This document shows positions 5,742-28,912 of a stretch of 47,205 nucleotides of DNA, in pieces (positions within the stretch are counted from its first letter, which is position 1; each line of letters starts with the position of its first letter). The stretch spans positions 1-47,205 of the forward strand of contig WGBD01000010.1 in NCBI GenBank assembly GCA_015494465.1, in the 5' to 3' direction. Below the pieces are notes generated by a model. The model did no database searches, was not told the origin of the DNA, and was given only the letters and a program-made list of their open reading frames with translations. The position numbers and the translations under genes were made by a program. This DNA comes from Candidatus Omnitrophota bacterium. GTDB lineage: Bacteria; Omnitrophota; Gorgyraeia; S143-82.

Positions 5742-6022
5742 TGAAGCGGTTTAGTGAGTTCGAAAAGGCGGTTTATAGGGAGGTCTTGAAGATACCCTTG
5801 GGTGAGGTCAGGACCTACGAAGAGATCGCCCAGGCCATTGGCAGGCCCAAGGCGGTGCGGGCGGTTGGGCAGGCCCTGAAAAGGAATCCCTTTCCCCTGA
5901 TCATCCCCTGCCACAGGGTGGTAGCGAAACGGGGGATCGGGGGCTACTCCCGAGGGGTCGAGAAGAAACGGCGTCTTTTGAGGTTGGAGTCCCGGGTAAA
6001 GGAGATGCTCTATGGCAGGTAA
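5741..6022 (+). CDS. ogt: Methylated-DNA--protein-cysteine methyltransferase, short form
   Basis: A 93-residue protein consisting only of the DNA-binding/active-site domain of O6-alkylguanine-DNA alkyltransferase. The acceptor motif IIPCHRVV is intact with Cys57, so it is not an alkyltransferase-like (ATL) protein, where this Cys is Trp. The RAVGQALKRNPFPL arginine-finger helix and the GGYSRGVEKKRRLL block are also present. The N-terminal RNase-H-like domain of full-length Ogt/Ada is absent, as in many short MGMTs. ATG 5741 shares its A with the ftsA-like stop codon (TGATG), so translation is coupled; the 3' end overlaps purM by 11 bp. The suicide repair reaction moves a methyl group from guanine O6 to the cysteine. 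Confidence 0.9.
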   Translation: MKRFSEFEKAVYREVLKIPLGEVRTYEEIAQAIGRPKAVRAVGQALKRNPFPLIIPCHRVVAKRGIGGYSRGVEKKRRLLRLESRVKEMLYGR

Positions 6023-6995
6023 GCGGAAGATTACCTATCGCTCCGCCGGGGTGGACATAAGGGGGGCGGAGAGGTTCGTCGACTTTATAGAGAAGAGGGT
6101 GGGGCTGGATAGGGGATTTGGTGCTCTGTATCCCCTGCCCAAGGGATTGGATAGGCCGGTATTGGTGTCTTCCACCGACGGGGTGGGGACGAAGTTGAAG
6201 TTGGCCTTCCTTTCGGGAAGGCACGACACCGTGGGGATAGATCTGGTGGCGATGAATGCAAACGACATCGTCTGCCGGGGGGCACGCCCGCTCTTTTTTC
6301 TGGACTACATCGCCTGTGGAAAGTTGGATGTCAGGGTCCTGAGGCGGGTGATAGAGGGTATTGCCCGGGGATGTGAGATGGCGGAGATGAGCTTGATAGG
6401 GGGGGAGACCGCGGAGATGCCCGGGTTCTATCCCGAAGGGGAGTACGACCTTTCGGGGTTTTGCGTGGGAGTGGTTGAGGCAAAGGACCTCCTGCCCCGA
6501 CGGGGGATAAAGGAGGGAGACCTCGTCGTAGGTTTGGCCTCCTCGGGTCTGCACAGCAACGGGTTCTCTCTAGTGAGGAAGGTCTTTCCCAAGCGGGAGA
6601 TCCTCAAGAGGATCGACGAGTTCCTGACTCCTACCCGGATATACTCCCCGCAGATCCTCGCTCTACTCAAGGAGTTTCCGGGGAAGGTCAAGCAGATAGC
6701 CCACATCACCGGTGGGGGATTCTATCTCAAGGCGATAAAGGGGATCCCCGAGGGCCTGGGGCTTAGATTTGACACGACTTCCTTTCCTATTCCTCCTATA
6801 TTCTCTGAAATACAGGAGCGGGCGGGGATGTCCAAGGAGGAGATGTTCTCTACCTTCAACATGGGGTTGGGGATGACCTTGGTGGTGTCCAGGCGCTGGG
6901 CGGATAAGGTGGTCTCGTTTCTGCGCAGGTGGCAGGATTGTTGGGTAGTGGGGGAGGTGGTGCGTGCAAGGTCGAGGGAACGGGTGCAGGTGTAG
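6012..6995 (+). CDS. purM: Phosphoribosylformylglycinamidine cyclo-ligase
   Basis: PurM (AIR synthetase) closes the imidazole ring in step 5 of purine synthesis using ATP. The 327-residue product shows the family signatures: YRSAGVDI at the start, VSSTDGVGTKLKLA, MNANDIVCRGARPLFFLDY, and LIGGETAEMPGFY. Further on are GLASSGLHSNGFSLVRKVF, AHITGGGF and STFNMGLGM. Length is slightly below the usual 340-350. It starts inside ogt (11 bp overlap) and its own last 32 bp overlap the start of the TonB receptor gene. No other pur genes are in the window. Confidence 0.95.
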   Translation: MAGKRKITYRSAGVDIRGAERFVDFIEKRVGLDRGFGALYPLPKGLDRPVLVSSTDGVGTKLKLAFLSGRHDTVGIDLVAMNANDIVCRGARPLFFLDYIACGKLDVRVLRRVIEGIARGCEMAEMSLIGGETAEMPGFYPEGEYDLSGFCVGVVEAKDLLPRRGIKEGDLVVGLASSGLHSNGFSLVRKVFPKREILKRIDEFLTPTRIYSPQILALLKEFPGKVKQIAHITGGGFYLKAIKGIPEGLGLRFDTTSFPIPPIFSEIQERAGMSKEEMFSTFNMGLGMTLVVSRRWADKVVSFLRRWQDCWVVGEVVRARSRERVQV

Positions 6996-8730
6996 GCTCC
7001 TTTCGTTGCTGTTCTTCGCCCTTTTCGGCTGGGGTGCTATCTCTTGGGCAGAGGGTGATGTGGAACTCACCCCAGTGGTGGTGTACCAGGATAGGATGGG
7101 GGATCTGGAGGCAAGGACGGAGCCCAGCTGGGAGGTGATCGTCTCCGAGGAGGGAGGGGTTTCAGGGGTGCAAGAGCTCCTGATCCACGATGTCCGTACG
7201 GCGGTGGATCTGGGAAGGGGAGGGGAGGGGATTGCAACCGTGTCGTTGCGGGGATTTTCTCCCCGTCACACCCGGGTGATGGTAGAAGGCGTGGCGATAA
7301 ACTCCTTGGCCTCGGGCTATCCCAGTGTGAATCGCCTGCCGTTTGTGGGCTTGGAGAGGGTGCAATTCCTGACCGGTGGTCCCTCTACCCTTTGGGGTGC
7401 GGGATTGGGAGGGGTGATGAACTTCCGATACGCCCTTTCCCGCTCCTTCCTGGAGGGATTGGTTGGGAAGGATTCGCTACACGCCTTGCGGGCTGGGGTG
7501 AGGCTCCCGCAGGGCTGGTTTGGGCTGGACATCGGGGAAGGCTATCCCGATGTCTTGCGGAAGGACCGGGACTGGAAGAAGGGGGTCTTTAAGGTTCAAT
7601 TGGGAGGGATGGCGCTCTTTGGCCTGTATTCTCAGGGCGACATCTCTTCTGGGGTATTCCCCGACGAGACATGGGAACGGGACAGATACAGGGACTTTAT
7701 AGGTAAGGTTTCTTGGGACAAAGAATTGGGCAATTGGCAGGCCAAGATGTCTCTCTCCGTCGTAGACGGGGCTACGGTGGTGGAGGACTTCGCAGATCCG
7801 GATGCCCAAGATCCCTACAGCCGGACGGACACCTCCCAGCGCAGGGTCGTCTTTTCCGGGGATCTCTGGAGGTGGTGGGACGATTCGGGCCTGAAGTTTG
7901 GCTGGGATGCGGAGGTGGACCGGCTGGATTCGGTGTACCTGAGCGAGACCAAGACCGCTCGCTCTTTGGGGATCTACGGGGAGTACACGACCTGGATTGG
8001 TCCGTTAGAGGTGAGCGCCGGGCTGAGGGCGGATCGCAACTGGGATTACGCTTCGGACCTTTCCGGACACCTTGGTGTGAAGTGGGGTGGATGGCGGGTA
8101 AATCTGTCCCGGGCGGTTTCTCCCCCGCCGTTGTTGTGGCGGTATTACGACGAGACCCGGGCAGGTATAAGGGGCAATCCGGACATCTCACCGGAGAAGG
8201 CTTGGGTGTATTCGCTGGAGTGGGAGCGGGAGTTACTGGGGCTGGATTGGGCTCTGGGATACGAGTTTTACCGTATAGAGGACGCGCTGGCGGTGGACAG
8301 GGATGCTGGTGGGCATTACTTTATGCGGAATTATCGCCTCTGGTCTCAGGAAAACTGGGACCTGGGATGCTCGTGGAGGGGCGAGCGTTGGGGCTGGCGA
8401 CTGTCCGTGAATTTCTCCCGCATCAAGGACGAGCACAGTGGGGAGGAGCGCAAGGGGGTTGAGAAGTTTCGGTTCTCGTTCGAGCCGTGGGTGCGCCTTC
8501 CCGGCGGATGGAAGTTGCAGGCGGTAGTCTGGTTGAGGGATTCTAACATGCCTTCCACTTACCGGGCGAGAGACAACCGGGCCGTCGTGGATCTCTACCT
8601 CACCCGGGAATTCGCCCGGGGGCAGGTCTATCTTGGGATGCAGAATGCCCTTAACGAGGACTTTTGGGAGGACTACTTTTATCCCCTGGAGAAGAGGCGA
8701 TGGCGGGTTGGAGTAAGGCTCTTCTGGTGA
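6964..8730 (+). CDS. TonB-dependent outer-membrane receptor
   Basis: A 588-residue outer-membrane receptor. A signal peptide (RLLSLLFFALFGWGAISWAEG) is followed by a TonB-box-like ELTPVVVY. The plug domain runs from about residue 45 to 145 and contains VSLRGFSPRHTRVMVEGVAIN and LTGGPSTLWGAGLGGVM. A beta barrel of about 440 residues follows, ending NALNEDFWEDYFYPLEKRR and a terminal aromatic W (VGVRLFW), the insertion signal. It is BtuB-sized rather than the larger siderophore type. GTG 6964 is supported by GGGAGG at 6952-6957; the gene starts inside purM. Downstream come a periplasmic solute-binding protein and a radical-SAM peptide cassette, so the ligand may be that peptide or its metal complex. 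That assignment is inference; ligand not readable from sequence. Confidence 0.88.
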   Translation: MQGRGNGCRCRLLSLLFFALFGWGAISWAEGDVELTPVVVYQDRMGDLEARTEPSWEVIVSEEGGVSGVQELLIHDVRTAVDLGRGGEGIATVSLRGFSPRHTRVMVEGVAINSLASGYPSVNRLPFVGLERVQFLTGGPSTLWGAGLGGVMNFRYALSRSFLEGLVGKDSLHALRAGVRLPQGWFGLDIGEGYPDVLRKDRDWKKGVFKVQLGGMALFGLYSQGDISSGVFPDETWERDRYRDFIGKVSWDKELGNWQAKMSLSVVDGATVVEDFADPDAQDPYSRTDTSQRRVVFSGDLWRWWDDSGLKFGWDAEVDRLDSVYLSETKTARSLGIYGEYTTWIGPLEVSAGLRADRNWDYASDLSGHLGVKWGGWRVNLSRAVSPPPLLWRYYDETRAGIRGNPDISPEKAWVYSLEWERELLGLDWALGYEFYRIEDALAVDRDAGGHYFMRNYRLWSQENWDLGCSWRGERWGWRLSVNFSRIKDEHSGEERKGVEKFRFSFEPWVRLPGGWKLQAVVWLRDSNMPSTYRARDNRAVVDLYLTREFARGQVYLGMQNALNEDFWEDYFYPLEKRRWRVGVRLFW

Positions 8731-10142
8731 GCCTGTTGGCACTCTGGCTGGGTGGTGCTGGCCTTTGTGAGGTGAGCCTGCGCTGGGGTGTGATCGGATC
8801 CCGTCCCGAAAACCTGGATCCTGCGGAGGTGGAGAATTGGGGGAAGGTGTATTCCCTCGCTATGTTCGACAGCCTGTTCGACAGGATCGGTCAAGAGTTG
8901 GTGCCAGTACTGGCCGAGGATCTGAAGGAGGTATCCCCTGGGGTGTGGAGGCTAAAGATAAGGGAGAAGGTCTGGTTCCACGACGGGAAGGAGCTCAGCG
9001 CCGACGATGTGCTTTTCTCCTTGGAGAGGTACAAGGCCCTGGGGAAGGCACACCAGGGGGAGGGGTACTTGAAGAAGGTCCTGCGAAGGGAGAAGAGGCT
9101 GGGTCGCTACGATGTTGAACTTGTGACCGCTCCCGATGTCGCCGAAGATACGCTAAGGCGTTTACTTCAATTTCCCGTATTGCCTGCCCACTGGTTCTCT
9201 TCTCCGGAGAAGGTTAAGGCCTTTGAGAGGCATCCAATAGGGACCGGTCCGTTTAGGTTTTACAGGGCTGGAGCTGGGAGGTTGATCTTAAAGGCCAACA
9301 AGCACTACTTTGGGGGGAGACCGAGGATAGATGAGTTGGTGGTACGGTTTTATCCCAATCTCAGCTCTCTGGTGCTGGCCTTGATCTCCCGCAAGGTGGA
9401 TGCCTTGACTGGACTTCCGTTGGTATATCGCGATCTCCTTTCCAGGATCGATGCCTATCGGGTCTATGAGGCACACACGGACTACGGTGTTGGGCTCACC
9501 TTCTTGAATCAGGGGTTGGGGAAGGACCCCTTGATCCGCAAGGTCGTCGCCCTGGCTTTGGGGGAGGATCAGTTCGAGGACCTAGATTACGGGATGGAGT
9601 GGATAGGTCGAAGACGGTCAGATCTGGAGACCGCAGGTCGCCTGCTGGCCTTTGGTGGGTTTGAGCGAAGAGGGGGTTGGTGGACGCGCGATGGTAAGCG
9701 GGTGATCTTGCGCTTGCTTTGGCCCAATTACGAGCGCTTCGACGCCTATTGGCTGGTCTACGCCCTAAAACGGGCCCTGGCTAGATTGGGTCTGCTTGTG
9801 GAATTCGTGGACGACCCTTCTCTAGCGGATTCTATGGTGGGATATTTTTATGTGGGGGAAGATAGGATGACCCGAGAGATCGACGAGACGAGGGCTCCCT
9901 ATCTGTATTCGTGGTTGTTGGGCTTACCCGTGGACAATATTTTCCAGGCGAATCTAAAGAAGACGACCATCTCTAGGGGCGAGGCTAGTTGGTTCGTGCC
10001 TATGTTTGAGTTTGGGTTTATATCGGTGTTGAACCGGGCGTTTTTCGTCGATGGCAGATGTGATCCCTCGAGGATCTCCTCGGTTTGTTGGTGCCAGCTC
10101 CAGGTGGGGAAAAATAAAAGAAAGGGGGTGATGGTATGGTAA
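8700..10142 (+). CDS. Extracellular solute-binding protein, family 5 (Opp/Nik/MbnE type)
   Basis: A 480-residue periplasmic protein. It has a signal peptide (KALLVSLLALWLGGAGLCE) and the family-5 pattern: SLRWGVIGSRPENLDP, MFDSLFDRIGQELVPVLAEDL, WFHDGKELSADDVLFSLERYK and PIGTGPFRF. These proteins bind oligopeptides, nickel or peptide-type metallophores (MbnE of methanobactin loci belongs here). No ABC permease genes are nearby, so it must use a transporter elsewhere or act only as a periplasmic carrier. ATG 8700 lies inside the TonB receptor gene (31 bp overlap), and the last 7 bp overlap the start of the 38-residue peptide gene. The C-terminus contains an odd CWC motif. Function with the flanking receptor and peptide is inference. 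Confidence 0.85.
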   Translation: MAGWSKALLVSLLALWLGGAGLCEVSLRWGVIGSRPENLDPAEVENWGKVYSLAMFDSLFDRIGQELVPVLAEDLKEVSPGVWRLKIREKVWFHDGKELSADDVLFSLERYKALGKAHQGEGYLKKVLRREKRLGRYDVELVTAPDVAEDTLRRLLQFPVLPAHWFSSPEKVKAFERHPIGTGPFRFYRAGAGRLILKANKHYFGGRPRIDELVVRFYPNLSSLVLALISRKVDALTGLPLVYRDLLSRIDAYRVYEAHTDYGVGLTFLNQGLGKDPLIRKVVALALGEDQFEDLDYGMEWIGRRRSDLETAGRLLAFGGFERRGGWWTRDGKRVILRLLWPNYERFDAYWLVYALKRALARLGLLVEFVDDPSLADSMVGYFYVGEDRMTREIDETRAPYLYSWLLGLPVDNIFQANLKKTTISRGEASWFVPMFEFGFISVLNRAFFVDGRCDPSRISSVCWCQLQVGKNKRKGVMVW

Positions 10143-10252
10143 AGGTAGTACGCGAGGGCAACAGATCCGTGGACACGCTGAATTGGTGCTGTTGGCCTCC
10201 GGGCACGGAGGCGAACAGGGTACTCCTCCCTAGCGAAGGCGAAGAGGAGTAG
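10136..10252 (+). CDS. 38-aa candidate RiPP precursor with WCCWPPG core
   Basis: A short frame, ATG 10136 to TAG 10250-10252, gives a 38-residue peptide. Its centre is W17-C18-C19-W20-P21-P22-G23, preceded by a hydrophilic N-terminal part (MVKVVREGNRSVDTLN) and followed by an acidic tail (SEGEEE). The Shine-Dalgarno AAGGGGGTGAT (10122-10132) is one mismatch from the full anti-16S complement and sits at ideal spacing, stronger than most in the window. The gene lies between the solute-binding protein (7 bp overlap) and a radical SAM/SPASM enzyme. Small size, paired Cys/Trp and position next to a SPASM maturase and ABC exporter are what is expected of a ribosomally made, modified peptide. Which residues are modified, and where the leader is cut, cannot be told from sequence. 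Confidence 0.72.
   Translation: MVKVVREGNRSVDTLNWCCWPPGTEANRVLLPSEGEEE
10221..10251 (+). other. Hairpin over the precursor stop codon
   Basis: TACTCCTC (10221-10228) and GAGGAGTA (10244-10251) form a perfect 8-bp stem; CCT/AGG (10229-10231 with 10237-10239) can extend it inside. The TAG stop of the peptide is within the 3' arm. No U-tract follows, so this is not a classic terminator; stabilising the 3' end of the peptide message is more likely. Confidence 0.6.
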
Positions 10253-10258
10253 TCCTGA

Positions 10259-10277
10259 GGCCCCCTTCTTGGGGGCC
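10259..10277 (+). other. GC-rich hairpin between precursor and maturase
   Basis: GGCCCCC (10259-10265), loop TTCTT, GGGGGCC (10271-10277): a perfect 7-bp all-GC stem. Only TTT follows a few bases later, so termination would be partial at best. Together with the hairpin just upstream it forms a tandem pair exactly between the peptide gene and the radical SAM gene, where other RiPP operons carry attenuators or stabilisers that raise precursor over enzyme. Confidence 0.65.
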
Positions 10278-10322
10278 GGCTTTATCCTTTGGAAGGCGTT
10301 GTGTTGGACGCGGGGGAGACGG

Positions 10323-11621
10323 ATGCGGACATCGGTATACAATCTCTATGTGTGGGACTTTCCCAAGCAGGGGAATGCGGTAGTCTTCAACACCCGTACC
10401 TCTGCCCTGTTGGAGATGGATCTTAAGACTGCTCAGGGCTTGAAGCGGGGAGACCTCAAAGGATTGGATCCCGAGACCTTGTCCCTTCTCCAGGAAAACG
10501 GTCTGGTGGTGGATTCGGAAGATCCGTGGGAGGAGTTGGAGGCCTCTAAAGAGGATCTGAGAAGGCTTGGGTTAGATGTGACCCTCCTTACCACTTACGA
10601 GTGCAATTTTGCCTGTCCGTATTGCTTTGAAAAGGGGGTAAAGAGACCCTCTTACATGAGCTTGGAGACTGCAGGCAAGGTCCTGGATTGGGTGGGGAGT
10701 TGGGTAAGAGAGCGAGGCTATCCAGCGGTCTCCTTCACATTCTACGGTGGAGAGCCCCTATTGAACAAGGAAGTGGTGGAGTTTTTCCTGGCCTCAGCCG
10801 GGGACCTGGCCCCCAGGGTTGTCTTCTTTCTCTTTACTAACGGAAGTCTTCTCGAGGAAGAAGACATCGTGGGCTGGAGATCGGCTGGCCTGCAGGAGAT
10901 CCGCGTCACCATAGACGGTCCCGAGGACCTCCACGATAGGCGTAGGCCGTTTAGGGACGGGAGGGGCACTTTTTGGGAGATCGTTCATCGCTTGAAGAAG
11001 GTGCTCCCTATAGTGAAGGTCTCCTTGAATGTGAACCTCTCTGAGGAAGGTTATTCTCGGATGGACGAGTTATTCCGGATACTCGCAACCGAGTTGCCGG
11101 TGGATAGGATAGCCAGTCTGATCATGAGTCCGGTGATCCCCGCGGTGGCGGACCTCTCAAATCGGCCTTACATCTCCGAGACCCTGGTCTCCCTCTTTTC
11201 TTCGGGTGGGGCCTTTGAAAGATTGGTAGAGTTAGTGCGAAAGGCCCGGGGATACGGGTTCAATGTCCGGATCCCGTTGAGCAGGTTCGCCTGCCCGCTG
11301 TTGGTGAGAGACGGAGGCATAATCGTAGACACCGAGGGCAGTCTTTACAAGTGCAGTTCTATGGTTGGGCACGAGGAATTCAGGATAGGGACGGTCGACA
11401 GAGGCTTTAATCGAAAATTCCAGGAATTCCTCTCCCTCCGTCCTTGGCAGGATTGTCCCAAGGATTGCCCTTATCTTCCTATCTGTCAAGGGGGTTGTCG
11501 GCTTTTCTCCTTGTTTGAGGCGGGCGACCTCAAGAAGAGCTTCTGTCGACGGGATTTCTTCGACAGATACTTCCCGGAAATCGTAAAGCTGGAGTACGAG
11601 TTTCTATGTGGGGCTTCTTGA
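10323..11621 (+). CDS. Radical SAM/SPASM peptide maturase
   Basis: A 432-residue enzyme. Residues 1-90 form a small N-terminal domain (NLYVWDFPKQGNAVVFNTRT) of the type that recognises precursor leaders. The radical SAM cluster motif is C94-x3-C98-x2-C101 (ECNFACPYCFEKG), followed by FTFYGGEPLLN and VTIDGPEDLHDRRRPF, all normal for SPASM enzymes. The C-terminal SPASM domain has GSLYKCSS, then C-x3-C-x5-C-x3-C (CPKDCPYLPICQGGC) and a last FC, enough to bind two auxiliary [4Fe-4S] clusters. Such enzymes install thioether or carbon-carbon crosslinks in peptides. Start ATG 10323 follows GGGGGAG; the longer reading from 10269 would run through the hairpin. The gene overlaps the ABC gene by 16 bp. 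The 38-residue upstream peptide is the obvious substrate. Confidence 0.9.
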   Translation: MRTSVYNLYVWDFPKQGNAVVFNTRTSALLEMDLKTAQGLKRGDLKGLDPETLSLLQENGLVVDSEDPWEELEASKEDLRRLGLDVTLLTTYECNFACPYCFEKGVKRPSYMSLETAGKVLDWVGSWVRERGYPAVSFTFYGGEPLLNKEVVEFFLASAGDLAPRVVFFLFTNGSLLEEEDIVGWRSAGLQEIRVTIDGPEDLHDRRRPFRDGRGTFWEIVHRLKKVLPIVKVSLNVNLSEEGYSRMDELFRILATELPVDRIASLIMSPVIPAVADLSNRPYISETLVSLFSSGGAFERLVELVRKARGYGFNVRIPLSRFACPLLVRDGGIIVDTEGSLYKCSSMVGHEEFRIGTVDRGFNRKFQEFLSLRPWQDCPKDCPYLPICQGGCRLFSLFEAGDLKKSFCRRDFFDRYFPEIVKLEYEFLCGAS

Positions 11622-13186
11622 TCAGTCGGATAGGGATAGGTAGGGTTCTATTCGTCTTGGGCTTGGACCTGCTGTCTCAGGGGATGTTGGTCGTCATCCC
11701 TTTGTTGATAAGGAGGATGCTCTCCGGTGAGAGTTGGGTCGGGGGTTGGCAGGGTGCAGGTGCAGTGGTGACGCTCGTGATAACTAGGATGGCGATCTAC
11801 ATCTGGAGGGATGGGGTGGTGGCTGATTGGGTGGAGGGGTTGACCTTGAGTCTGAAGGAGGAGTTGATCCCTTCCACGGAGAGGTTAGGGCCCCGGGCCA
11901 TCGCCTTTGGAGACCTTTTCGTTAACCTATCCCGGGATGTAGAGAGGATAAGGTCCTTTTTGGCAGGTATTGCTTTCCCTGCCTTGAGCGATGTGGTCTA
12001 TCTCGGCCTTGCGCTGGTGGGGGCTTTGATCGTCTTCCCTCAGGTGATCCTCCCGCTTTTGGTGTTCATTGGGGTGGTTATATCGGTCTATGGGTTCTAC
12101 ACGAAGAGGATGATGTCCTTGTACGAGTCCTTACGGGAAACCTTAAAGTGGACCTTCCGGTATGTCTCGGAGTTGATGCAGGGGTGGGTGGAGGCCTGGA
12201 TATACGAGCTGGATGCGGTCTTGGCTCAGAGGCTCCGGGAGGCCTTCCGCAGGGAAGGTGAGCTCCGCAAGCGCTTGTTTCTGCTCTCTTCGCGTTTGGC
12301 GGTGATCAGTGAGGCCCTGGTTCAGGTGGGTGCGGTGGCGGTGTTGGTCTTGCTCCTTTCCTTTCGCAGTGCCCTGGGCTTGAGCCTTGGCGATGTCGTG
12401 GCGGGGTACATGCTCGTCTCTTTTGGAATAAGACCGGTGGTTAGATTGGTCTCACTCTCCTCTTCTTTGGCCGGGGTGAAGGTGGCCTGGGATAGGATAG
12501 AGTCTGCTCGGAGATCCCTCCAGCTGGGGGCAGGGGGCTTTGGTAGGTATCTCCCTAATGCGGTGTCCTTGAAGCTTTCGGGCGTTGGATTCTGGTACGA
12601 GCCAGGGAGGTGGCTTTTCCGAGGGCTGTCTGCTGAGGTGGCGGAAGGGAGACTGTTGTTGATCACCGGACCGAATGGTAGTGGTAAGACCACGCTGATG
12701 AAGCTGATGTTGGGGATGCTGACCCCCAAAGAGGGAAGCATTCGGATTGGAGGGGTATCTTCTGCGGACTTGGATTGGAGGCGATTTCGCCGGGTCGTGG
12801 GCGTGCTTTGGGCGGAAGAGTTTTTTACTTCTGGTACGGTTGAGGAGAACTTGAGGGTGGGGCTAGAGGATTTCCCTAGGCAGAAGGCCTTGGAAATGAT
12901 GAGGTTGGCAGGTCTAGAGGGAATAGACCTTTCCACACCCATAGATCCCGCAGGTAAGGGGCTATCCAGGGGCCAGCGAAGACGCTTGGGTCTGATAAGG
13001 GCCCTCTTGAGGGGCAAGAGGTTGCTCGTTCTGGACGAGGTCTTTGCCAATCTGGATAGCAAGGGAAGGGAGTGGGTGGTCGATGTGCTCTCCGACCTAA
13101 AGGGTAAGGTTACCGTAGTCGTCAGTACGAATTTTATTTCCGATGAACTGTTGGCCTTGGCAGAGGAGGTGGTGCGTTTGGGGTGA
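11606..13186 (+). CDS. ABC exporter half-transporter (membrane + ATPase fused)
   Basis: A 526-residue half-transporter: five or six membrane spans in residues 1-310, then an ATPase domain. Walker A is GPNGSGKTT (K361), the signature is LSRGQRRRLGL and Walker B is RLLVLDEVFANLD. There is no C39 peptidase domain, so it does not cleave a leader itself. Two usual catalytic positions are changed: the Q-loop glutamine reads Ala403 (VLWAEEFF) and the H-loop histidine is missing (VVVSTNFIS, Thr508). These changes may slow or alter ATP hydrolysis. The gene overlaps the radical SAM gene by 16 bp and the kinase gene by 4 bp (GTGA). Export of the modified peptide is the likely role; lipid or drug export cannot be excluded. 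Confidence 0.87.
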   Translation: MWGFLISRIGIGRVLFVLGLDLLSQGMLVVIPLLIRRMLSGESWVGGWQGAGAVVTLVITRMAIYIWRDGVVADWVEGLTLSLKEELIPSTERLGPRAIAFGDLFVNLSRDVERIRSFLAGIAFPALSDVVYLGLALVGALIVFPQVILPLLVFIGVVISVYGFYTKRMMSLYESLRETLKWTFRYVSELMQGWVEAWIYELDAVLAQRLREAFRREGELRKRLFLLSSRLAVISEALVQVGAVAVLVLLLSFRSALGLSLGDVVAGYMLVSFGIRPVVRLVSLSSSLAGVKVAWDRIESARRSLQLGAGGFGRYLPNAVSLKLSGVGFWYEPGRWLFRGLSAEVAEGRLLLITGPNGSGKTTLMKLMLGMLTPKEGSIRIGGVSSADLDWRRFRRVVGVLWAEEFFTSGTVEENLRVGLEDFPRQKALEMMRLAGLEGIDLSTPIDPAGKGLSRGQRRRLGLIRALLRGKRLLVLDEVFANLDSKGREWVVDVLSDLKGKVTVVVSTNFISDELLALAEEVVRLG

Positions 13187-14796
13187 AGGAGGATAAAGGA
13201 TATCGTAAGTTCTCCTCTAAGTTAGGGCGCTTGTTTGGGGCCCTCTTGTTGGTCTTTGCCCTGATAGACGGTATCCTGTTTTATGCCTTGCTTAGGGGGT
13301 TGCTCGGTGATGTCTTCTCGATAGCTCGGCGACACTACGCCAACAACATCGCCCGGCGCTTGGAGGAGAGATTGGATGAATACAGGACGATGGGTTCTAG
13401 CTTGTTGGATCTGCGGGATGTCCACTTACTCCAAGCCCCTTGGCAGGTGAGGTTGGCCTTAGCAGAATTTAACCTGCGCTTTCCCGAGGTAGAGTGCAGT
13501 TACTGGTTGGGAGAAGATGGTATCGTCTCTTCTTGCCCGGATAGAGCAGTGCCATCTCTGCACTGCGAAGGGCCTACATGCGCCAGGATTGATCGGAAAG
13601 ACGAAAGGTCGCTCGTTTGGCTGTTGATCAAGGGCCGAGGTGGGGATCTGCTCCTGAGGTTGCCTATGTACGGTCTGTGGGCCTATTGGGGACACCTGCT
13701 CGTGCCTACTCCTTATTTCGATGTATCGATCACCGACGCTGGCGGTAGGTGCGTCTACGACTCCCGAGGTGGTGAGGATTCCTGTGCGGGGATCCGAGAA
13801 AAGGCGATCGATAGGGCGCGGATCGAATCCATGGATTGGACCCTCGTGATTATCCCCCGATTTGCCTACTGGTTGAGGAGATGGGGACGGTTTTTTGGTT
13901 GGATGCTGGCGATCCAGATACTGATCTTGGGAGTCGTTGCGGGGATTTCGGTGTGGATCGTGAAGAGGAGCTTTAGAGACCTCGAGGAGATAATACCCTT
14001 TGTAGACCGGATATCCAAAGGGGACTTCCAGGCCAGGCTGACCTTGCGAAGAGACGACGAGATCGGACTGCTTGCCAGGCATGTGAATGGGATGGTCGCT
14101 GAGCTCCAGGAGTATCGGCGTCTCTCAAACATATGGTTGATAGGTAAGGCGATGACCTGGTTGGCTCACGAGATCAAGAATAAGATCCTCCCTGCTAAGG
14201 CCTTTTTGCAAGGCGTGATGGAGGGTAGGTTGGAGAAGGACTTTTTGGAGAAGATGGGTAGGGTTGCCCTGGATCAGATAGAGAAGACGGAGTCTTTGTT
14301 AGAGGACTTTTCTAATCTCAGGATGGACCTCCAACTCCACTTGGTAGAGGTGGACATCTGTGCCCTAGTTCAGGAGGTGGTAAGGGGATTCCAGCCGCTT
14401 ATCGTGAAGAAGGGAATCGATGTGGAGGTCTCGTGTACTCCCGAGTTGAAGTGGGTTGTGGACGGAGATAAGTTCTCTATCGCCTTGGGCAACCTGTTAT
14501 TGAACGCCTTGGAGGTCTTGGGGCCGGGTGGGAAGGTCGATATAAGGGCCCGGGTCAGGGGAGATGTGCTCTTGATGGAGGTGGAGGATAACGGTCCTGG
14601 TATACCCGAGGAGGTGAAGTCCCACCTGTTCGAGCCGTTTACCAGAGAGGGGCGGGAACGGTCTCCGAATCGAGGTGTGGGTCTGGCCATAGTCTACAAC
14701 ATAGTCAAGGCCCATGGAGGGAGCATAGCGGTAGAGAGTTCCAGCGAAGGGACGAAGTTCGTGATCAAGATCCCCAGGTCTGCGATTAGAAGGTAG
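13183..14796 (+). CDS. Sensor histidine kinase with cysteine-rich external domain
   Basis: A 537-residue membrane kinase. TM1 is near residues 14-38, an extracytoplasmic sensor spans about 40-235, and TM2 is near 240-262 (FGWMLAIQILILGVVAGISVW). HAMP follows at about 263-320. The dimerisation helix carries the phospho-acceptor H329 (TWLAHEIKNKILPAK), then the ATPase domain has GNLLLNALEVL, DNGPGIP and GVGLAIV. The sensor domain has several cysteines (VECSYW, SSCPD, LHCEGPTC, GRCVYD, DSCAG), suited to a metal, a redox signal or disulfides. It starts within the ABC gene stop (GTGA), so it is made together with the peptide export system. Its likely partner is the REC-AraC regulator 98 bp downstream, which has its own -10 element. 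Signal unknown; the modified peptide or its metal load is a reasonable guess. Confidence 0.9.
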   Translation: MKEDKGYRKFSSKLGRLFGALLLVFALIDGILFYALLRGLLGDVFSIARRHYANNIARRLEERLDEYRTMGSSLLDLRDVHLLQAPWQVRLALAEFNLRFPEVECSYWLGEDGIVSSCPDRAVPSLHCEGPTCARIDRKDERSLVWLLIKGRGGDLLLRLPMYGLWAYWGHLLVPTPYFDVSITDAGGRCVYDSRGGEDSCAGIREKAIDRARIESMDWTLVIIPRFAYWLRRWGRFFGWMLAIQILILGVVAGISVWIVKRSFRDLEEIIPFVDRISKGDFQARLTLRRDDEIGLLARHVNGMVAELQEYRRLSNIWLIGKAMTWLAHEIKNKILPAKAFLQGVMEGRLEKDFLEKMGRVALDQIEKTESLLEDFSNLRMDLQLHLVEVDICALVQEVVRGFQPLIVKKGIDVEVSCTPELKWVVDGDKFSIALGNLLLNALEVLGPGGKVDIRARVRGDVLLMEVEDNGPGIPEEVKSHLFEPFTREGRERSPNRGVGLAIVYNIVKAHGGSIAVESSSEGTKFVIKIPRSAIRR

Positions 14797-14893: not shown

Positions 14894-15616
14894 ATGGGGG
14901 AGAAGAAGGGAACTTACAAGCCTACCATATTGGTATTGGACGACGAACCAGCGGTTAGGGCGAGTTTTGCCCTGTCCTTCCCCGAATATCAGTTCATAGG
15001 AACGGATTCTCCGTTTGAGGCCCTGGAGATACTGCGCTCTCCCAATAGGATCCGCTTGGTGGTCCTGGATGTGGTTATGCCGGGCATAAACGGGATAAGC
15101 GTGTTGAGGCAGATAAGGAAGGTGGATCCCTCTATCCCGGTCGTCATATGTACCGGATACGGAAGTAAGGAGATAGTGGTGGAGGCCTTGAGGGCAGGGG
15201 CCAACGACTACATCGAGAAGCCGTTTAACCTGCAAACGGTGAGGAGGATCTTCGCTCGATTGATAGAGGACACATTGGAGGAGGGAAAGGACAAGGTCCA
15301 GTGGGCCTACGAGATGCTGAGGGAAGGTTTCCACAAGAACATAAATCTAGAGAAAGTCAGCTCTGCCCTCAACCTCAATCCCAAGTACCTGAGCCGGGCG
15401 TTTAAGGAGAGGTTTGGGAGGAGGTTTACCGAGCTGAAGAATTCCTTGCGGATGGAGAAGGCCAGAGAGCTCTTGGCCCATACGGACATGTCTATTACCG
15501 AGATAGCGATAGAGGTGGGCTTCTCTTCTCCCGAAGTTTTTTCTAGAAACTTCAAAGAGGAACACGGGATAACCCCCTCGGACTACAGGGCGTTGTTCAG
15601 ATCCGGAGGGAGGTAG
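14894..15616 (+). CDS. Response regulator, receiver + AraC-type DNA-binding domain
   Basis: A 240-residue regulator. The receiver domain (residues 8-125) has the acidic pair in VLDDEP, phospho-acceptor D59 in VVLDVVMPG, T in CTGYG and K in EKPF. The C-terminal AraC-type double helix-turn-helix occupies about 140-235, with NLEKVSSALNLNPKYLSRAF as the first recognition unit and MSITEIAIEVGFSSPEVFSRNF as the second. The layout is that of two-component AraC regulators rather than sugar-sensing AraC. ATG 14894 follows GGAGAGGGG. A membrane kinase is upstream and a soluble PAS kinase 3 bp downstream; either could phosphorylate it. Likely controls the peptide cassette or the secreted-fibre locus; no binding sites identified. 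Confidence 0.93.
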   Translation: MGEKKGTYKPTILVLDDEPAVRASFALSFPEYQFIGTDSPFEALEILRSPNRIRLVVLDVVMPGINGISVLRQIRKVDPSIPVVICTGYGSKEIVVEALRAGANDYIEKPFNLQTVRRIFARLIEDTLEEGKDKVQWAYEMLREGFHKNINLEKVSSALNLNPKYLSRAFKERFGRRFTELKNSLRMEKARELLAHTDMSITEIAIEVGFSSPEVFSRNFKEEHGITPSDYRALFRSGGR

Positions 15617-15618
15617 GT

Positions 15619-17223
15619 ATGGACCGTACGCTCGATCTTTTGGAGCTCCTACCGGTAGGGATATTCGTGACCGACAAGAACGGCCAGATGACTTATGTGA
15701 ATCAGGCCTTGGTTTCTATGGTGGGCTATCCCAGGGAAGAGCTGATAGGCAGGTCCCCTAGGATATGGAAGTCTGGCAACCACACTTTGGGATTCTACAA
15801 ACAGCTCTGGCAGACGATCCTCTCTGGCCGTAAGTGGGATGGTATCATCCAGAACAAGAAGAAGGACGGCACGATCTACTGGCAGGCCACGGAGATCATC
15901 CCTCTAAAGCAGGGGGAGGATCTGCAGGGCTTTTTGGCGGTGGCTCGGGATGTAAGCTACGAGTACTACCAGCAACAGCAGGTCTTAGACTACTACGAGC
16001 AACTTTACATGGATGTCTTGAACCATGTACGGGTAGGAATTGCGATATTCAGCGGGGACAGGAGTCTGATGTACATAAATCCTCAATTGAAGAGGTGGTT
16101 GGGGGAGAACGGTGGTGTGGAGGTGTGCGCAGTATCTTTGATGGAGGTCCCGTTCGTCAGCTGCTGTGTGGATAAGGCCTTTTGCCAGGGACAGCTGGGG
16201 GAGATAACCGTAGAGTTGAACGGTGGCTTTTTCCGGGTCACCACCTTCCCGATGCGGTTGGACGGTAAGGTCACGAGCGTAGTCGTGGTCTTCGTGGACA
16301 TCACTAAGGAAAAGACCGTGGAGAGGGAACTTGCATTGTACAAGGAGTTTCTGGAGCAAGAGATAGAGAACCGCACTTACGCCCTTACCCAGGCCAAGAG
16401 GCGGTTGGAGCTCCAGGCGATGGAGTTGACCGAGGCCCACGAGAACCTTAAGGTCCTTTACGAGGAGTTGAAGGAGAAGAATCGTCAGTTGCGGTATCTG
16501 GATCAACTGAAGACGGAGTTCGTGTTTACCGTCTCGCACGAGATTCGAACCCCCTTGACCACCATCCGTGAGGGCGTGGCCTTGATCTTGGATCGGGTGT
16601 TCGGGGAAATAACAGCCGAGCAAGAGGACATATTGAGGACCGTTCTGGCGGACATAGATCGTTTGTCTCGAATAGTGTCTGACTTCTTGGACATAGCCAA
16701 GATAGAGAGTGGTCGGTTGGCCTTGGACAAGAGAGAGGTGGACCTCTCGGAACTGCTCCAGGGATGTCTGAAGAGCTTTGTTCCTGTTGCCGAGGGCAAG
16801 GGCTTGGAGTTGATCTCAGAGGTCGAGGAGGGGCTTTTGTCCCAGTGCGATCCCGATAGGATAAACCAGGTCCTGGTAAACCTGTTGGGGAACGCGTTGA
16901 AGTTTACCGAAGAAGGATTTATTAGGGTTGAGGCCAAACGAAGCGAGGACGGTCGTTGGGTTCAGGTAGTAGTCGAGGATACGGGCCCGGGCATCCCGGA
17001 CGAAGATAAGGAAAAGGTGTTCGACAAGTTCTATCAGGTGGGGAGAAAGGCCGGACCAGGCCCCCAGGGTACTGGTCTAGGCCTGCCCATCTCGAAGAGG
17101 TTAGTGGAGTTGCACGGGGGACAGATGTGGGTTGAGGATCGGCCAGGGGGAGGGAGCCGGTTTTGTTTCACCCTCCCGTTAGAGGAGGTGAGGAGTTATG
17201 TCCAGGATACTGGTAGTAGATGA
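15619..17223 (+). CDS. PAS-domain sensor histidine kinase (soluble)
   Basis: A 534-residue cytoplasmic kinase with no membrane span. PAS 1 lies in residues 8-115 (LPVGIFVTDKNGQMTYVNQA, VSMVGYPREELIG, WQATEIIPLK). A second PAS-like domain is at about 128-232; it contains SCCVDKAFC and ends in VFVDITKEK. A long coiled coil follows (235-300, rich in E/K/L heptads). The HisKA domain carries H307 (FTVSHEIRTPLTTI) and HATPase_c has NLLGNALKFTEEG, DTGPGIP and GTGLGLPISKRLVELHGG. The start is 2 nt after the REC-AraC stop and the end overlaps the receiver gene by 26 bp, so the three genes form one signalling unit. Cysteines in the second PAS may sense redox state or bind a cofactor; this is speculative. 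Confidence 0.94.
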   Translation: MDRTLDLLELLPVGIFVTDKNGQMTYVNQALVSMVGYPREELIGRSPRIWKSGNHTLGFYKQLWQTILSGRKWDGIIQNKKKDGTIYWQATEIIPLKQGEDLQGFLAVARDVSYEYYQQQQVLDYYEQLYMDVLNHVRVGIAIFSGDRSLMYINPQLKRWLGENGGVEVCAVSLMEVPFVSCCVDKAFCQGQLGEITVELNGGFFRVTTFPMRLDGKVTSVVVVFVDITKEKTVERELALYKEFLEQEIENRTYALTQAKRRLELQAMELTEAHENLKVLYEELKEKNRQLRYLDQLKTEFVFTVSHEIRTPLTTIREGVALILDRVFGEITAEQEDILRTVLADIDRLSRIVSDFLDIAKIESGRLALDKREVDLSELLQGCLKSFVPVAEGKGLELISEVEEGLLSQCDPDRINQVLVNLLGNALKFTEEGFIRVEAKRSEDGRWVQVVVEDTGPGIPDEDKEKVFDKFYQVGRKAGPGPQGTGLGLPISKRLVELHGGQMWVEDRPGGGSRFCFTLPLEEVRSYVQDTGSR

Positions 17224-25051: not shown

Positions 25052-25078
25052 ATCCTCTAATTGATGGAGAGGTTAAAG

Positions 25079-28000
25079 ATGGATGGTAAGAGGTCTGCTT
25101 CCGTCTCAGGGTACTGGAAGAAGGTGATGGTCGTCTGCTTCGGCGTCATCTTCTTTGCTTCCTGTCTTTCCTGGGCAGGGGTGGAGGGTGTTGTCTGGAG
25201 CGGTGATGGTTTGGGCTTCTCCCTGGTCTCGGAGTCGGGGAGATCTTCCTTGGGGGAGAGGCTGGTTTTGGAGGCCCTTGCCTTTGAGAGGGATCGGGTC
25301 TGGGTAAACCTTGCACCCTGGATAGACGAGAGGCAGGCGTTGGCCCCAGAACTGGTAGGGACCGCGTTGGGGCGCGTGCTGTTGGAGGCAGACCTCCAGC
25401 TGAAGAGGGATGTGGCCTCTCAGATGCTGGCCTTGGCAGATGAGCTGAGGAATCTCGGGAACGGTCTCCCTCGAGTCTGGATATCCCCGGACCGCGTGGA
25501 GTTGGGCACCGAGGGAGGGCGGTGCAGGATAGCCTCTTTGACCTTAAGGGTATCGGTGGAAGGGATCTCCGACGAAAAGGTTAGGGCAAAATTGGAGTCT
25601 CGTCTTACCCGATTGGTCAACTCTGCGGATCGGTATGGGGATCTTCGAGAACTGATGAAGGCAGTGTTCTTGGCGGAATTCCTGCGGGGGATAGGGCCTT
25701 CCCCAGACCTCTGGTCGGTCTATTCTCATCTCGTCAGGCGAAGTGCCCCTAAGCGATACGATGTACTCCAGGCCTACCAAAGAGATTTTTTCTCTCCTGA
25801 GGAGTTTGATCGGGGAGCTGGGCAGGTCTGGGCTATAGGGGGGATAAGGTGCGACGGCGGGAGAGTGGAGAAGACGCCCTTAAGGGAGTGGGAGGTGAGG
25901 AAGGCCTATGTGGAGAGGGCAGAGGATGTCCTTGGGAGGCTTATACCCCCTTTGGGGGAGTCCCAGGAGGGCTATCTCCTGGATGGCCTGAGGAGGGAGT
26001 TGAGGGATCGCTTGACGAATACTCGAGGGAGGTGGGAGGGGTATCGCCTTTATGTGGACTCTGCTTTGAAAGAGTTCGGGCTTGGAGGGGAAGAGGTGGA
26101 CCTAGTGGCCTACGCCCTTGCCCTGTACGACGGAAAGATCTCCCTTGAACCTGGGGATCTGCCTAGCCTACTGTTGCTGAATCTGGCGAATCTGGTGGAG
26201 GATTATCCCTTGAGTCTAACCGCTTGGCAGTTGGACTTGGTGCGGTTTTTAGACCTAGAGCGGGTTGTTAAAGCAGTAAATGTGTATATACTTCAAAGAG
26301 AAGGTTATGCCTTTGAGAAGGCGAAGGAAAGGGTGGAGGAGATCTGGGAGGGCGTGAATAGGACCCTGGTAGAGATGCGGCGGGAAAAGAATTTTATACC
26401 ATCTTCAAAGGCCAGAGGTGAGGCGGAGTTCGCCAAACTGATGTCCGCCCTGCCGGATAAGTTGAAGGCCCTGCTCGACGAGGTCCACCGGAACAGGATG
26501 GTGGTGGCGGACCCCAAGACCTGGACCACCCTGAGAGAGAAACTAAGCGATGAGCAGTGGGCGGGCTTCTTGACCTTGGTCTCTCTACAGTTCCTTTCTC
26601 CCCAAGAGATCCGGAGATTCGTCTCCCGGGAAAGGGTCAGTGCCTACCTGGAGACCTTGCTCGAGGTAGAGCAAAAGGCCCTCGCGGAACTGTCCGGCAG
26701 TCGTCTGGACGAGGTGGAGGCCTTCGTGGTAGACGGGATAAAGCTCTGCGCACGGGTATATTCGGATCTGGTGCGGGAGAAGCTGGGATACAAGTTTGCT
26801 TCTCCGCTTACGGACGAGGAGTGGGAGTCCTATAAAGAGGAGTACAAAAAGGTCCTGGGGGAGGAGGGTCTTGAGGATCTGCTTGAGGAATTGCGCAGGT
26901 TTGCTGAGGAGATGAAGCGCAATGGCAAAAGGAAGGTCGTTATCTTCAACGCCACCTTCTTCGGTGGAGGCGTTGCAGAGATGATCCCGGGGATGTGGCG
27001 GTTCCTGCAGAGGTTTGGGATAGAGGTGGAGTGGCAGATAGTCCGTCCCCGCAATCCAAGCCGGTTCTACGCGGTGACCAAGAAGATGCACAACGCCATC
27101 CAGGGGCAGGAAGTGGAGTTTACGGACGAGGATGTGAAGCTACTGGAGACGGTTGGGCGGGACAACTTTGAGATATACAAGTCGTGGATAGACGATCCGG
27201 AGGTGGGGGCGGTATTCTTCGAGGATCCACAGGTGGTCTCTACCCTTAAGTTCTTCTTGGACTATCTGGACGCTACTGGGCGGAGGTTTCCGATCGCCTT
27301 TCGCCTGCACATAGATGTCAGCGGTTTGCAGGGTAAGAACGCGGATTCGGGGGCAGGGAAACTGTGGGCGTATCTGGACGGGGTCCTCTCTCGCTTGAGA
27401 GAGGAGCACTCGGGTGTCCTGTTGTGCCAGCCTTACCTCGTTCCGCCCACCTGGGAAGGAAAGGAACGCGTGTTTACCCAACCGCCTGGTATAGACATAC
27501 TCAGCCCCAAGAACAGCGTAAAATCCAGAGAGGAGGTACTAGAGATACTTCACCGGTTGAAGGCAAAGGAGAGGTTTGGGAGGGACCTGGCCCCTCTGCT
27601 GGACAGCGGTCGGCAGGTGATAGTCACCGGGGCAAGGGCGGATGCCTGGAAGGGCCTGCTTCAGGTGGCCTTGGCATATGTGGACCTGGTCAAGAGGTGG
27701 GAGGGGGAAGGCCGGTCCAAGGACGAACTGCCGGTGATGGTCCTATTCGCAGGCGGGGCGGACGACGATCCGGAGATAAAGGTCATACGGCCCCAGTTGG
27801 AGGCCTTGGTAGACAGGTACAAAGATTACATATACTTTCTCTGGAATCCCCAAGGAGAGGAGGTAGGTGCGGTCTACAGGCTGGCGGGGATGACCAAGGG
27901 GCCGGTGGCAATCGCCTCGGTTAAGGAGGGCTATAATCTGGTGATTGCCGAGGCGATCCGCCAGGGCGCCTTGCCCATCACCACAAATGCAGGGGGGTTG

Positions 28001-28912
28001 AAACGGTTTGAAAGCATTCGGGTAAACGGGCAGACCTATCCCTGGATAATAGACCTCAAGGACCCGAAGGTGAAAAGGCTCTTCGAGGAGGCCCAACCGA
28101 AGGAGTTGATGGACGAGGACTCCGAGGTAACCAAGGCATTGGTGGAGAGGCTGACTGCCAAGTTGGATGGGTTCTTGCGGGAGTACAGGCGGAATCCCCA
28201 GGAGTATCTGGCTCACCTCGGCCCACTTACCCGCCATGTGTTTGAGACCTCCCTCTTGCCTATGAGCCGGGATTACCTGAGGTGGACGGTGGAGTACCTT
28301 AGTGGGAATTGGCAGGGTCCCGAGAAGGAGGTGTTGCCAAGGTATGTGTATGTGGTGGTGGAGGATCCCGAGAGGCTGGGTAAGGTCTTGAGGGAGTACA
28401 TCCCCTCCCGGTTGAGTTTGGCTGAGGGGCGGTTGAAGGATCGCCTTGCCTGGTTCGTGGCTGTGGGTGAACTGCTCTTAGGGGTGGAGAGGGATCCAGT
28501 TTCTAGGACCGTTTCCCTTTCCGGTCAGGGACAGCGGAGTGAGTTGCACCACTGGTTGGCGTTGTTGTTTCCCGACTCAATCGAGCTAGGGCCTCCTTCC
28601 GAGGAGGCAGAGGCCTCGGTGGAGGAGCTGATGAGGTTGGGTGAGGAGTTGGACAAAGAGGGCTTCCGTTCCTGGTTGAAAGACAGGGTCGATATCTTTC
28701 CCGAGGCCTGGATCTCAGGGTTCGATAGCAAGCGGTTCAGCGTAAAGATGCTGGTGGCCTCCTATGTGCTCGAGAGGTTGGGGGAGAAGGGCGCTTTGAC
28801 TGCAGTGCTAGAGAGGCTGGCCGGGCAGATAGGCCTGGAGGACATCTTGGAGTTTGTCCACAGGCTGGATTCCTTGGTAAAAGAGACCGAGCGGGGCGGT
28901 GTAGAGTTTTAG
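25079..28912 (+). CDS. Giant exported protein with embedded TreT-like GT4 glycosyltransferase
   Basis: A 1277-residue protein. ATG 25079 is set by GGAGAGG (25066-25072); an upstream ATG at 25064 has no such site. The N-terminus is a signal peptide or anchor (KKVMVVCFGVIFFASCLSWAG). The FASC could even be a weak lipobox. Residues about 40-260 resemble the N-terminal part of the protein at 45129 (shared V-N/D-L, A-D-x-x-L-K-x-x-V and L-R-V patterns). Residues about 615-1050 are a GT-B glycosyltransferase close to trehalose-synthase TreT: FNATFFGGGVAEMIPGMW, KKMHNAIQGQE, the phosphate-site TGARADAWKG, and the E-x7-E motif in KEGYNLVIAEAI. Nucleotide-sugar donors are not expected outside the cytoplasm, so either the N-terminus is a cytoplasm-facing anchor or the domain has another role. 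No partner gene points to a substrate. Confidence 0.75.
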   Translation: MDGKRSASVSGYWKKVMVVCFGVIFFASCLSWAGVEGVVWSGDGLGFSLVSESGRSSLGERLVLEALAFERDRVWVNLAPWIDERQALAPELVGTALGRVLLEADLQLKRDVASQMLALADELRNLGNGLPRVWISPDRVELGTEGGRCRIASLTLRVSVEGISDEKVRAKLESRLTRLVNSADRYGDLRELMKAVFLAEFLRGIGPSPDLWSVYSHLVRRSAPKRYDVLQAYQRDFFSPEEFDRGAGQVWAIGGIRCDGGRVEKTPLREWEVRKAYVERAEDVLGRLIPPLGESQEGYLLDGLRRELRDRLTNTRGRWEGYRLYVDSALKEFGLGGEEVDLVAYALALYDGKISLEPGDLPSLLLLNLANLVEDYPLSLTAWQLDLVRFLDLERVVKAVNVYILQREGYAFEKAKERVEEIWEGVNRTLVEMRREKNFIPSSKARGEAEFAKLMSALPDKLKALLDEVHRNRMVVADPKTWTTLREKLSDEQWAGFLTLVSLQFLSPQEIRRFVSRERVSAYLETLLEVEQKALAELSGSRLDEVEAFVVDGIKLCARVYSDLVREKLGYKFASPLTDEEWESYKEEYKKVLGEEGLEDLLEELRRFAEEMKRNGKRKVVIFNATFFGGGVAEMIPGMWRFLQRFGIEVEWQIVRPRNPSRFYAVTKKMHNAIQGQEVEFTDEDVKLLETVGRDNFEIYKSWIDDPEVGAVFFEDPQVVSTLKFFLDYLDATGRRFPIAFRLHIDVSGLQGKNADSGAGKLWAYLDGVLSRLREEHSGVLLCQPYLVPPTWEGKERVFTQPPGIDILSPKNSVKSREEVLEILHRLKAKERFGRDLAPLLDSGRQVIVTGARADAWKGLLQVALAYVDLVKRWEGEGRSKDELPVMVLFAGGADDDPEIKVIRPQLEALVDRYKDYIYFLWNPQGEEVGAVYRLAGMTKGPVAIASVKEGYNLVIAEAIRQGALPITTNAGGLKRFESIRVNGQTYPWIIDLKDPKVKRLFEEAQPKELMDEDSEVTKALVERLTAKLDGFLREYRRNPQEYLAHLGPLTRHVFETSLLPMSRDYLRWTVEYLSGNWQGPEKEVLPRYVYVVVEDPERLGKVLREYIPSRLSLAEGRLKDRLAWFVAVGELLLGVERDPVSRTVSLSGQGQRSELHHWLALLFPDSIELGPPSEEAEASVEELMRLGEELDKEGFRSWLKDRVDIFPEAWISGFDSKRFSVKMLVASYVLERLGEKGALTAVLERLAGQIGLEDILEFVHRLDSLVKETERGGVEF

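Follow-up and report, generated by a model that had tools for sequence, protein, structure and literature searches.

The window, by which we mean the whole stretch of 47,205 nucleotides of Omnitrophota DNA analysed here, contains a cassette of six forward-strand genes whose identity, order and strand, as given in a preliminary description of this DNA, are borne out by domain profile matches. These genes encode a TonB-dependent outer-membrane receptor (TBDR; 6964..8730; PF07715 plug, 39.9 bits) that we propose takes up the mature peptide, a family-5 periplasmic binding protein (SBP5; 8700..10142; PF00496, 118.6 bits) that would act as the periplasmic peptide receptor, a precursor peptide of 38 aa (10136..10252), a radical SAM/SPASM peptide maturase (10323..11621; PF04055, 60 bits; TIGR04085 (SPASM), 45 bits against a cut-off of 27), an ABC exporter consisting of membrane and ATPase domains (11606..13186; PF00005, 92 bits; PF00664, 26.7 bits), which is the putative route of peptide export and in which domain profiles detected no peptidase domain, and a sensor histidine kinase with a periplasmic domain (HK1; 13183..14796; HAMP and HATPase, PF00672 and PF02518). 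As previously described, the cassette starts inside the housekeeping gene purM (AIR synthase; 6012..6995, forward strand; PF00586 and PF02769), which lies outside the system: the GTG start of the TBDR gene at 6964, preceded by the Shine-Dalgarno-like GGGGGAGG, is located within the last 32 bases of purM. The most likely start of SBP5 is ATG 8700, and that of the maturase is ATG 10323 rather than TTG 10269, because the aligned family begins there with M[KR]xSxxN. The earlier characterization of the cassette as an overlapping run thus applies to most of the genes but not to the peptide and maturase genes, which do not overlap. The gap between these two genes contains a G+C hairpin (GGCCCCC-TTCTT-GGGGGCC; 10259..10277, forward strand) in the RNA fold of 10240-10330, which might conceivably function in mRNA processing or attenuation; with a z of only -0.98, it is no better than shuffles, and we discarded this candidate.

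The preliminary description did not include a response regulator. One with an AraC-type DNA-binding domain (14894..15616, forward strand; PF00072 and PF12833) adjoins the kinase gene on its 3' side and is the proposed output of HK1. Given that a response regulator follows the kinase in the relatives as well, this gene belongs to the system by conservation, and we accordingly extend the cassette to position 15616. The next gene, encoding a second, cytoplasmic histidine kinase (15619..17223, forward strand; PF00512, PF02518 and PAS), is not a conserved member of the system and is possibly accessory. Elsewhere, the window encodes large carbohydrate-active proteins at 39916-42549 and 25061-28912 (glycosyl hydrolase 94 domain; trehalose-synthase-like domain). 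All sequences considered are draft or metagenome assemblies, and the analysis is computational throughout.

The precursor peptide, MVKVVREGNRSVDTLNWCCWPPGTEANRVLLPSEGEEE, is preceded by the Shine-Dalgarno-like GGGGGTGA. At the same place in a congeneric species, there is a 39-aa ORF with 63% identity over 27 aa (E 7e-6), WCCWPPGTE being common to both peptides, and in nearly every Omnitrophota relative, a small ORF with CC and a good ribosome-binding site is found between SBP5 and the maturase, so that the peptide of the window is more than a chance reading frame. The alignment of 19 peptides (18 from Omnitrophota and one from Auribacterota) yields the consensus MEIIxxGxxxVxxxxxLxCCxPPGTE, in which CC never varies and a single G and a single P hardly do; in the peptide family that accompanies the gene order across Omnitrophota, CC is followed by [WFY]. 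No NCBIfam precursor family covers the peptides of the window or the relatives; for TIGR04229 (cut-off 30 bits), there was no match to the window peptide at E<=0.1 and none to seven relatives at E<=10. As expected of a RiPP made by a SPASM radical SAM maturase, the locus encodes a short precursor with a leader and a core next to the maturase.

In the loci of Acidobacteria, Nitrospirota and Nitrospinota, the maturase gene is directly followed by that of the peptide, which has a single Cys (for example, MKITVIKKATTERKPQNYCPWVVEGDAPQDKK); the peptides of this arrangement, denoted B below, are 25-33 aa long with one Cys only. Such peptides speak against a metallophore, under which the exported CC peptide would bind a scarce metal, be recaptured by the TBDR and handed over to SBP5, with the kinase sensing the loaded complex and adjusting supply, and so does the lack of any further conserved metal-binding residue after CC in the peptide alignments. 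The combination of a TBDR, a family-5 binding protein, a Cys peptide and an exporter is nevertheless made up of methanobactin gene kinds, and scarce metal chelates are the usual cargo of TonB-dependent uptake. We consider such a metallophore, which would work in the manner of methanobactin but be made by a SPASM enzyme, unlikely but the main rival reading.

The maturase alignment has an invariant C-N-x-x-C-x-Y-C motif, which fits the CxxxCxxC cluster motif, and a C-terminal set of Cys residues, as expected of a SPASM radical SAM enzyme. The best family for the window maturase is the geopeptide maturase, TIGR04280, at 228.3 bits against a cut-off of 400; the Omnitrophota relatives score 255-305 bits, and true geopeptide loci 482-724. 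The PapB and SCIFF models score 107 and 87 bits, against cut-offs of 340 and 425, respectively. In the AlphaFold model of the maturase (pLDDT 86.5), the N-terminus consists of three strands and helices, and this beta-rich region is possibly a leader-binding (RRE-like) domain. The nearest PDB entry is CteB (5wgg), both by sequence (86.6 bits) and by fold (E 5e-20, TM 0.69). CteB forms thioether bonds, and from this structural proximity, Cys crosslinking, that is, thioether formation, appears to be the most likely reaction of the maturase. If Cys is indeed used in thioethers, a metal site made of Cys becomes less likely, as it does given the single Cys of the type B peptides.

The maturases of dynobactin and darobactin are SPASM enzymes as well (weak NCBIfam matches), and export combined with autoinduction recalls the control of lantibiotics, so that the product could be pictured as an antimicrobial or predation peptide secreted against competitors or prey and monitored by the TBDR, SBP5 and the kinase for autoinduction. 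There is, however, no conserved immunity gene, a receptor for taking up a toxin would put its own producer at risk, and the peptides are very short, with a leader that lacks a double-Gly site, all of which makes this role quite improbable.

A scan of genome contigs with the exact protein sequence of the window maturase gave no match; the relatives came from an aligned query, which retrieved them from Omnitrophota, Auribacterota, Planctomycetota, Acidobacteriota, Nitrospirota, Nitrospinota, Deltaproteobacteria and Oligoflexia. Profile searches delineate three arrangements, the scores for the first being inflated because its loci were used to make the profiles. Arrangement A consists of regulator, TBDR, SBP5, peptide, maturase, ABC exporter and dCache kinase; arrangement B, found in Acidobacteria and others, of NtrC regulator, maturase, peptide, SBP5 and dCache kinase; and arrangement C, the geopeptide one, of peptide and maturase together with a TBDR, a PF04392 binding protein and a kinase, often divergently oriented. 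In a quick-method tree of 61 sequences, the maturases of types A, B and C and two from planctomycetes fall on one side of a branch with 99% SH-aLRT support, opposite the other SPASM maturases; this side unites the maturases of Omnitrophota, Auribacterota, Planctomycetota, Acidobacteria and Nitrospirota with those of the geopeptide loci. The type C maturases exceed the TIGR04280 cut-off, and geopeptide systems are present in 60 of the 146 sampled Geobacter-class genomes (59 above the curated cut-off). A TBDR and a PF04392-type protein were found in 25/25 of the C loci fetched, and a kinase match in 22/25; four of these loci were profile seeds, leaving 21 independent ones, all with a TBDR and a binding protein, and the 20 Geobacter-class loci were the top-scoring ones rather than a random sample. 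Throughout the loci of the family, a binding protein (PF00496 or PF04392) is almost invariably accompanied by a sensor kinase. The 37 loci of other SPASM maturases from the maturase scan, some with short flanks, gave no SBP5 or TBDR match.

Several loci stand somewhat apart. One Geobacter-class geopeptide locus (L218, ~7656-11300) has two maturase genes and a tandem array of at least three nearly identical peptides, the cores of which differ after CC, and the hypervariability of geopeptide cores suggests specificity types. A contig filed under Ignavibacteriales (L043) encodes a maturase that is 65% identical to the Omnitrophota ones, reflecting either transfer or mis-binning. The window genome itself encodes a second SPASM-type radical SAM protein (G000:C8:43213-43923; L002, L158; 35% over 239 aa) with no adjoining SBP5 or TBDR.

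The same gene order recurs across Omnitrophota, and the receptor closely co-occurs with the maturase. A search of 285 Omnitrophota genomes with a core-clade receptor as the query yielded matches of at least 250 bits in 17, the next match scoring 177 bits. The maturase is present in 14 of these 17 genomes, and in the other three, the contig ends just after SBP5, with the peptide MEIIQEGLADIFELQGLNCCYPPGSESYVYIAE visible before the end in one; hence the core-clade receptor is never found without peptide and maturase except at contig ends. The receptor of the window is divergent (162 bits in this search). In a maximum likelihood tree, which is midpoint-rooted and has long branches (2.07 for the stem of the window and L024), it groups with 16 other receptors from Omnitrophota operons (split 95/99), apart from BtuB and FepA of E. 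coli as well as twelve further Omnitrophota receptors, with the geopeptide receptors falling in between. The tree accordingly gives no support to a BtuB-type cobalamin receptor, an assignment that would have broken the link between receptor and peptide, as would a regular occurrence of receptor and binding protein without peptide and maturase.

The families of SBP5 and TBDR serve many substrates, and the two proteins could in principle import an unrelated nutrient and be merely co-transcribed with a RiPP of another role. The near-constant company of core-clade receptor, peptide and maturase and the recurrence of the association with two different binding-protein families leave this a highly improbable explanation. 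The co-occurrence of receptor and maturase instead indicates that the parts belong together, and the earlier suggestion of a product that is made, exported and recaptured remains the best reading of the locus.

In arrangement B, the neighbourhood contains no receptor or exporter, but both SBP5 and the dCache kinase are retained, which marks these two as the conserved core. In the genus of the window, SBP5 is shorter and more divergent, at ~480 aa compared to ~530 aa in the relatives, and part of the second lobe is missing, so that it may have acquired a different ligand or role. The best NCBIfam match of the window SBP5 (P0002) is a NikA model, at 60 bits, and NikA and CntA are among the family-5 binding proteins, which favours a metallophore. 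A second family-5 binding protein is encoded in the window genome (G000:C4:14641-15780; L167); its contig lacks a PF00528 permease. A search for PF00528 importer permeases found none on the window contig and, in 12 genomes that together represent the three types, none within 20 kb of the maturase. Permeases are encoded elsewhere in the window genome and in other genomes and could act on SBP5 in trans. The absence of a neighbouring permease favours sensing over import but is compatible with a metallophore, since MbnE likewise has no known permease (PMC7558416). Besides transporters, binding proteins are known to activate receptors in the membrane (PMC9602780).

The orthologues of HK1 in the relatives carry dCache_1 (PF02743). 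The kinase had been described as Cys-rich, which holds for the window, where the first 270 aa include 6 Cys, but not for the relatives, with 0-2; because Cys richness is private to the window genome rather than a feature of the family, we dismissed the notion of a Cys-rich metal sensor. The AlphaFold model of the kinase (pLDDT 70, pTM 0.38) was too weak for use.

Among the relatives, by pattern comparison, the promoter element before the peptide operon varies with the regulator type. A sigma-54 -24/-12 site precedes the peptide operon in 7 of the 10 NtrC-type loci of arrangement A: TGGCAYN5TTGCT (10-11 of 11 positions) is located directly before SBP5 in L026, L027, L029, L031, L032 and L152, and the site precedes the peptide in L055, with none in L025, L038 and L039. 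All 14 arrangement B loci scanned have such a site (9-10 of 11) before the maturase, against a background of 0.073 per kb per strand; it is absent from all nine AraC-type or AraC-lineage loci scanned, and the geopeptide loci show no excess over background. The AraC-type loci share GTAGAAAAAAGTCA-N17-CCTATT, located about 100 bases upstream of SBP5; several of them also have it upstream of the regulator or of the gene that follows the regulator. A whole-genome search with the strict pattern yielded 7 matches, six of them within the system, compared to 0 for the reversed control. In the window, the pattern scan found neither a sigma-54 site nor the AraC-lineage element; the sigma-54-like scores in the window genus, 9/11 inside the SBP5 gene of L024 and 7/11 in the window, were taken as chance.

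The seventh strict match (G197:C24:87127-87091, L240; minus strand, 0 mismatches) is situated ~230 bases upstream of an operon for type II CBASS that encodes a TIR-TM effector, HNH, CD-NTase, E1-E2 and JAB (322 bits for CD-NTase, 147 for E1-E2, 163 for JAB and 33 for TIR), and an element with two mismatches (G108:C23:336975-337011, L252) precedes genes for two small secreted proteins of unknown kind. Each of these sites is a single instance; three-mismatch matches outside the system, for which the reversed control gives 0-1 per genome, were not counted. That the regulon of some Omnitrophota reaches anti-phage defence in the form of type II CBASS would, on this evidence, be a long shot. None of the outside matches precedes metal genes, and the positions of these sites, before CBASS and secreted-protein genes, weigh against a metallophore, as does the lack of a metal transporter, Fur-like or metal-efflux gene among the genes checked.

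From the gene content and order, their conservation, the clade structure and the regulator-dependent promoter elements, we infer biochemical steps, a direction of transport, a ligand and a contact between SBP5 and the kinase that would combine as follows. The maturase would bind the short leader of the precursor (MEIIxxG...) and crosslink the CC core, most likely through Cys thioethers, as its CteB-like fold suggests; the ABC exporter would then move the modified product out of the cytoplasm, and the TonB receptor would return it to the periplasm, where SBP5 would capture it and present it to the adjacent kinase. The kinase would drive the response regulator, of the AraC type here and of the NtrC type in relatives, which in turn would switch on the operon of the peptide along with a small number of genes outside the system. 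The system would then be a ribosomal peptide signal that is modified by a radical SAM enzyme, secreted and sensed again, a proposal to which we assign an even chance of being correct. Counting against it, neither promoter element occurs in the window, sigma-54 sites are not in excess in the geopeptide loci, and acidobacterial loci have no receptor or exporter close by. Of the peptide metallophore or signal originally suggested, we favour the signal, the metallophore being less likely because the conserved partners of SBP5 are a sensor kinase and a regulator. More tentatively still, the loci could represent a class of diderm systems in which an exported, radical-SAM-modified pheromone is re-imported by TonB and read out by a binding protein and a kinase, with geopeptide as one branch and with some Omnitrophota regulons reaching CBASS.

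Gram-positive bacteria are well known to use peptide pheromones that two-component systems read. If the proposal is true, a modified ribosomal peptide returning via a TonB receptor would be a new route of communication in diderms; alternatively, the peptides would be a new class that captures metal. Either reading would provide a function for geopeptide systems and their relatives in at least eight phyla, and it names testable partners for each peptide, namely a single receptor, a single binding protein and a single kinase, in carriers that, for geopeptide, include laboratory organisms that can be cultivated.

Methanobactin, to which the preliminary description had likened the cassette, resembles it in the kinds of genes involved, with a small Cys peptide, a TonB receptor, an OppA-like binding protein, an exporter and a regulator, MbnT being the TonB transporter and MbnE the OppA-like protein (PMC7558416). 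Maturation in methanobactin (MbnA/B/C/T/E/M) involves MbnB, and there is an MbnM, as opposed to the SPASM maturase and ABC exporter of the window, and the kinase and response regulator of the window system set it apart further. The parallel therefore stops short of membership, which we ruled out: MbnB (TIGR04159) has 0 matches in the window genome, and no match in 117 Omnitrophota genomes exceeds the cut-off. Eleven of these 117 encode MbnB-like proteins at 52-67 bits (L231, L232 and others), far below the cut-off, which probably belong to a wider enzyme family. The SCIFF/ranthipeptide maturases (CteB/ScfB, PapB) include the closest solved structure and act on a Cys-containing substrate, but the window has no six-Cys peptide, and the neighbourhood is different. 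The streptococcal RaS-RiPPs under SHP/Rgg control are, likewise, radical SAM RiPPs tied to peptide signalling; in these Gram-positive bacteria, a separate, unmodified pheromone controls the RiPP, whereas in the diderm system proposed here, the RiPP itself would be sensed (PMC13361665). In our literature search, which covered few subscription journals, there was nothing on geopeptide, TIGR04280 or TIGR04229, the function of which is undescribed there, and no paper joining peptide pheromone, TonB-dependent and histidine kinase; the name geopeptide is itself known, and its receptor, binding-protein and kinase context appears to be undescribed.

The nearest named relative is, indeed, not methanobactin but the geopeptide system (TIGR04229 peptide, TIGR04280 maturase), which the preliminary description had missed. 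The two systems have maturases in one clade (the 99% branch), short precursors whose CC lies near the C-terminal third, and a TonB receptor, a binding protein and, mostly, a kinase alongside. They differ in that the window maturase is below the 400-bit cut-off and the window peptide lacks a TIGR04229 match, in the binding protein, which is PF00496 in the window and PF04392 in geopeptide, and in the exporter, which is inside the operon in the window system only. Judged by sequence, the Omnitrophota system is a branch of a superfamily that includes geopeptide, namely, a putative receptor-coupled RiPP system, related to geopeptide although outside the cut-offs of its families, with a gene logic conserved across phyla.
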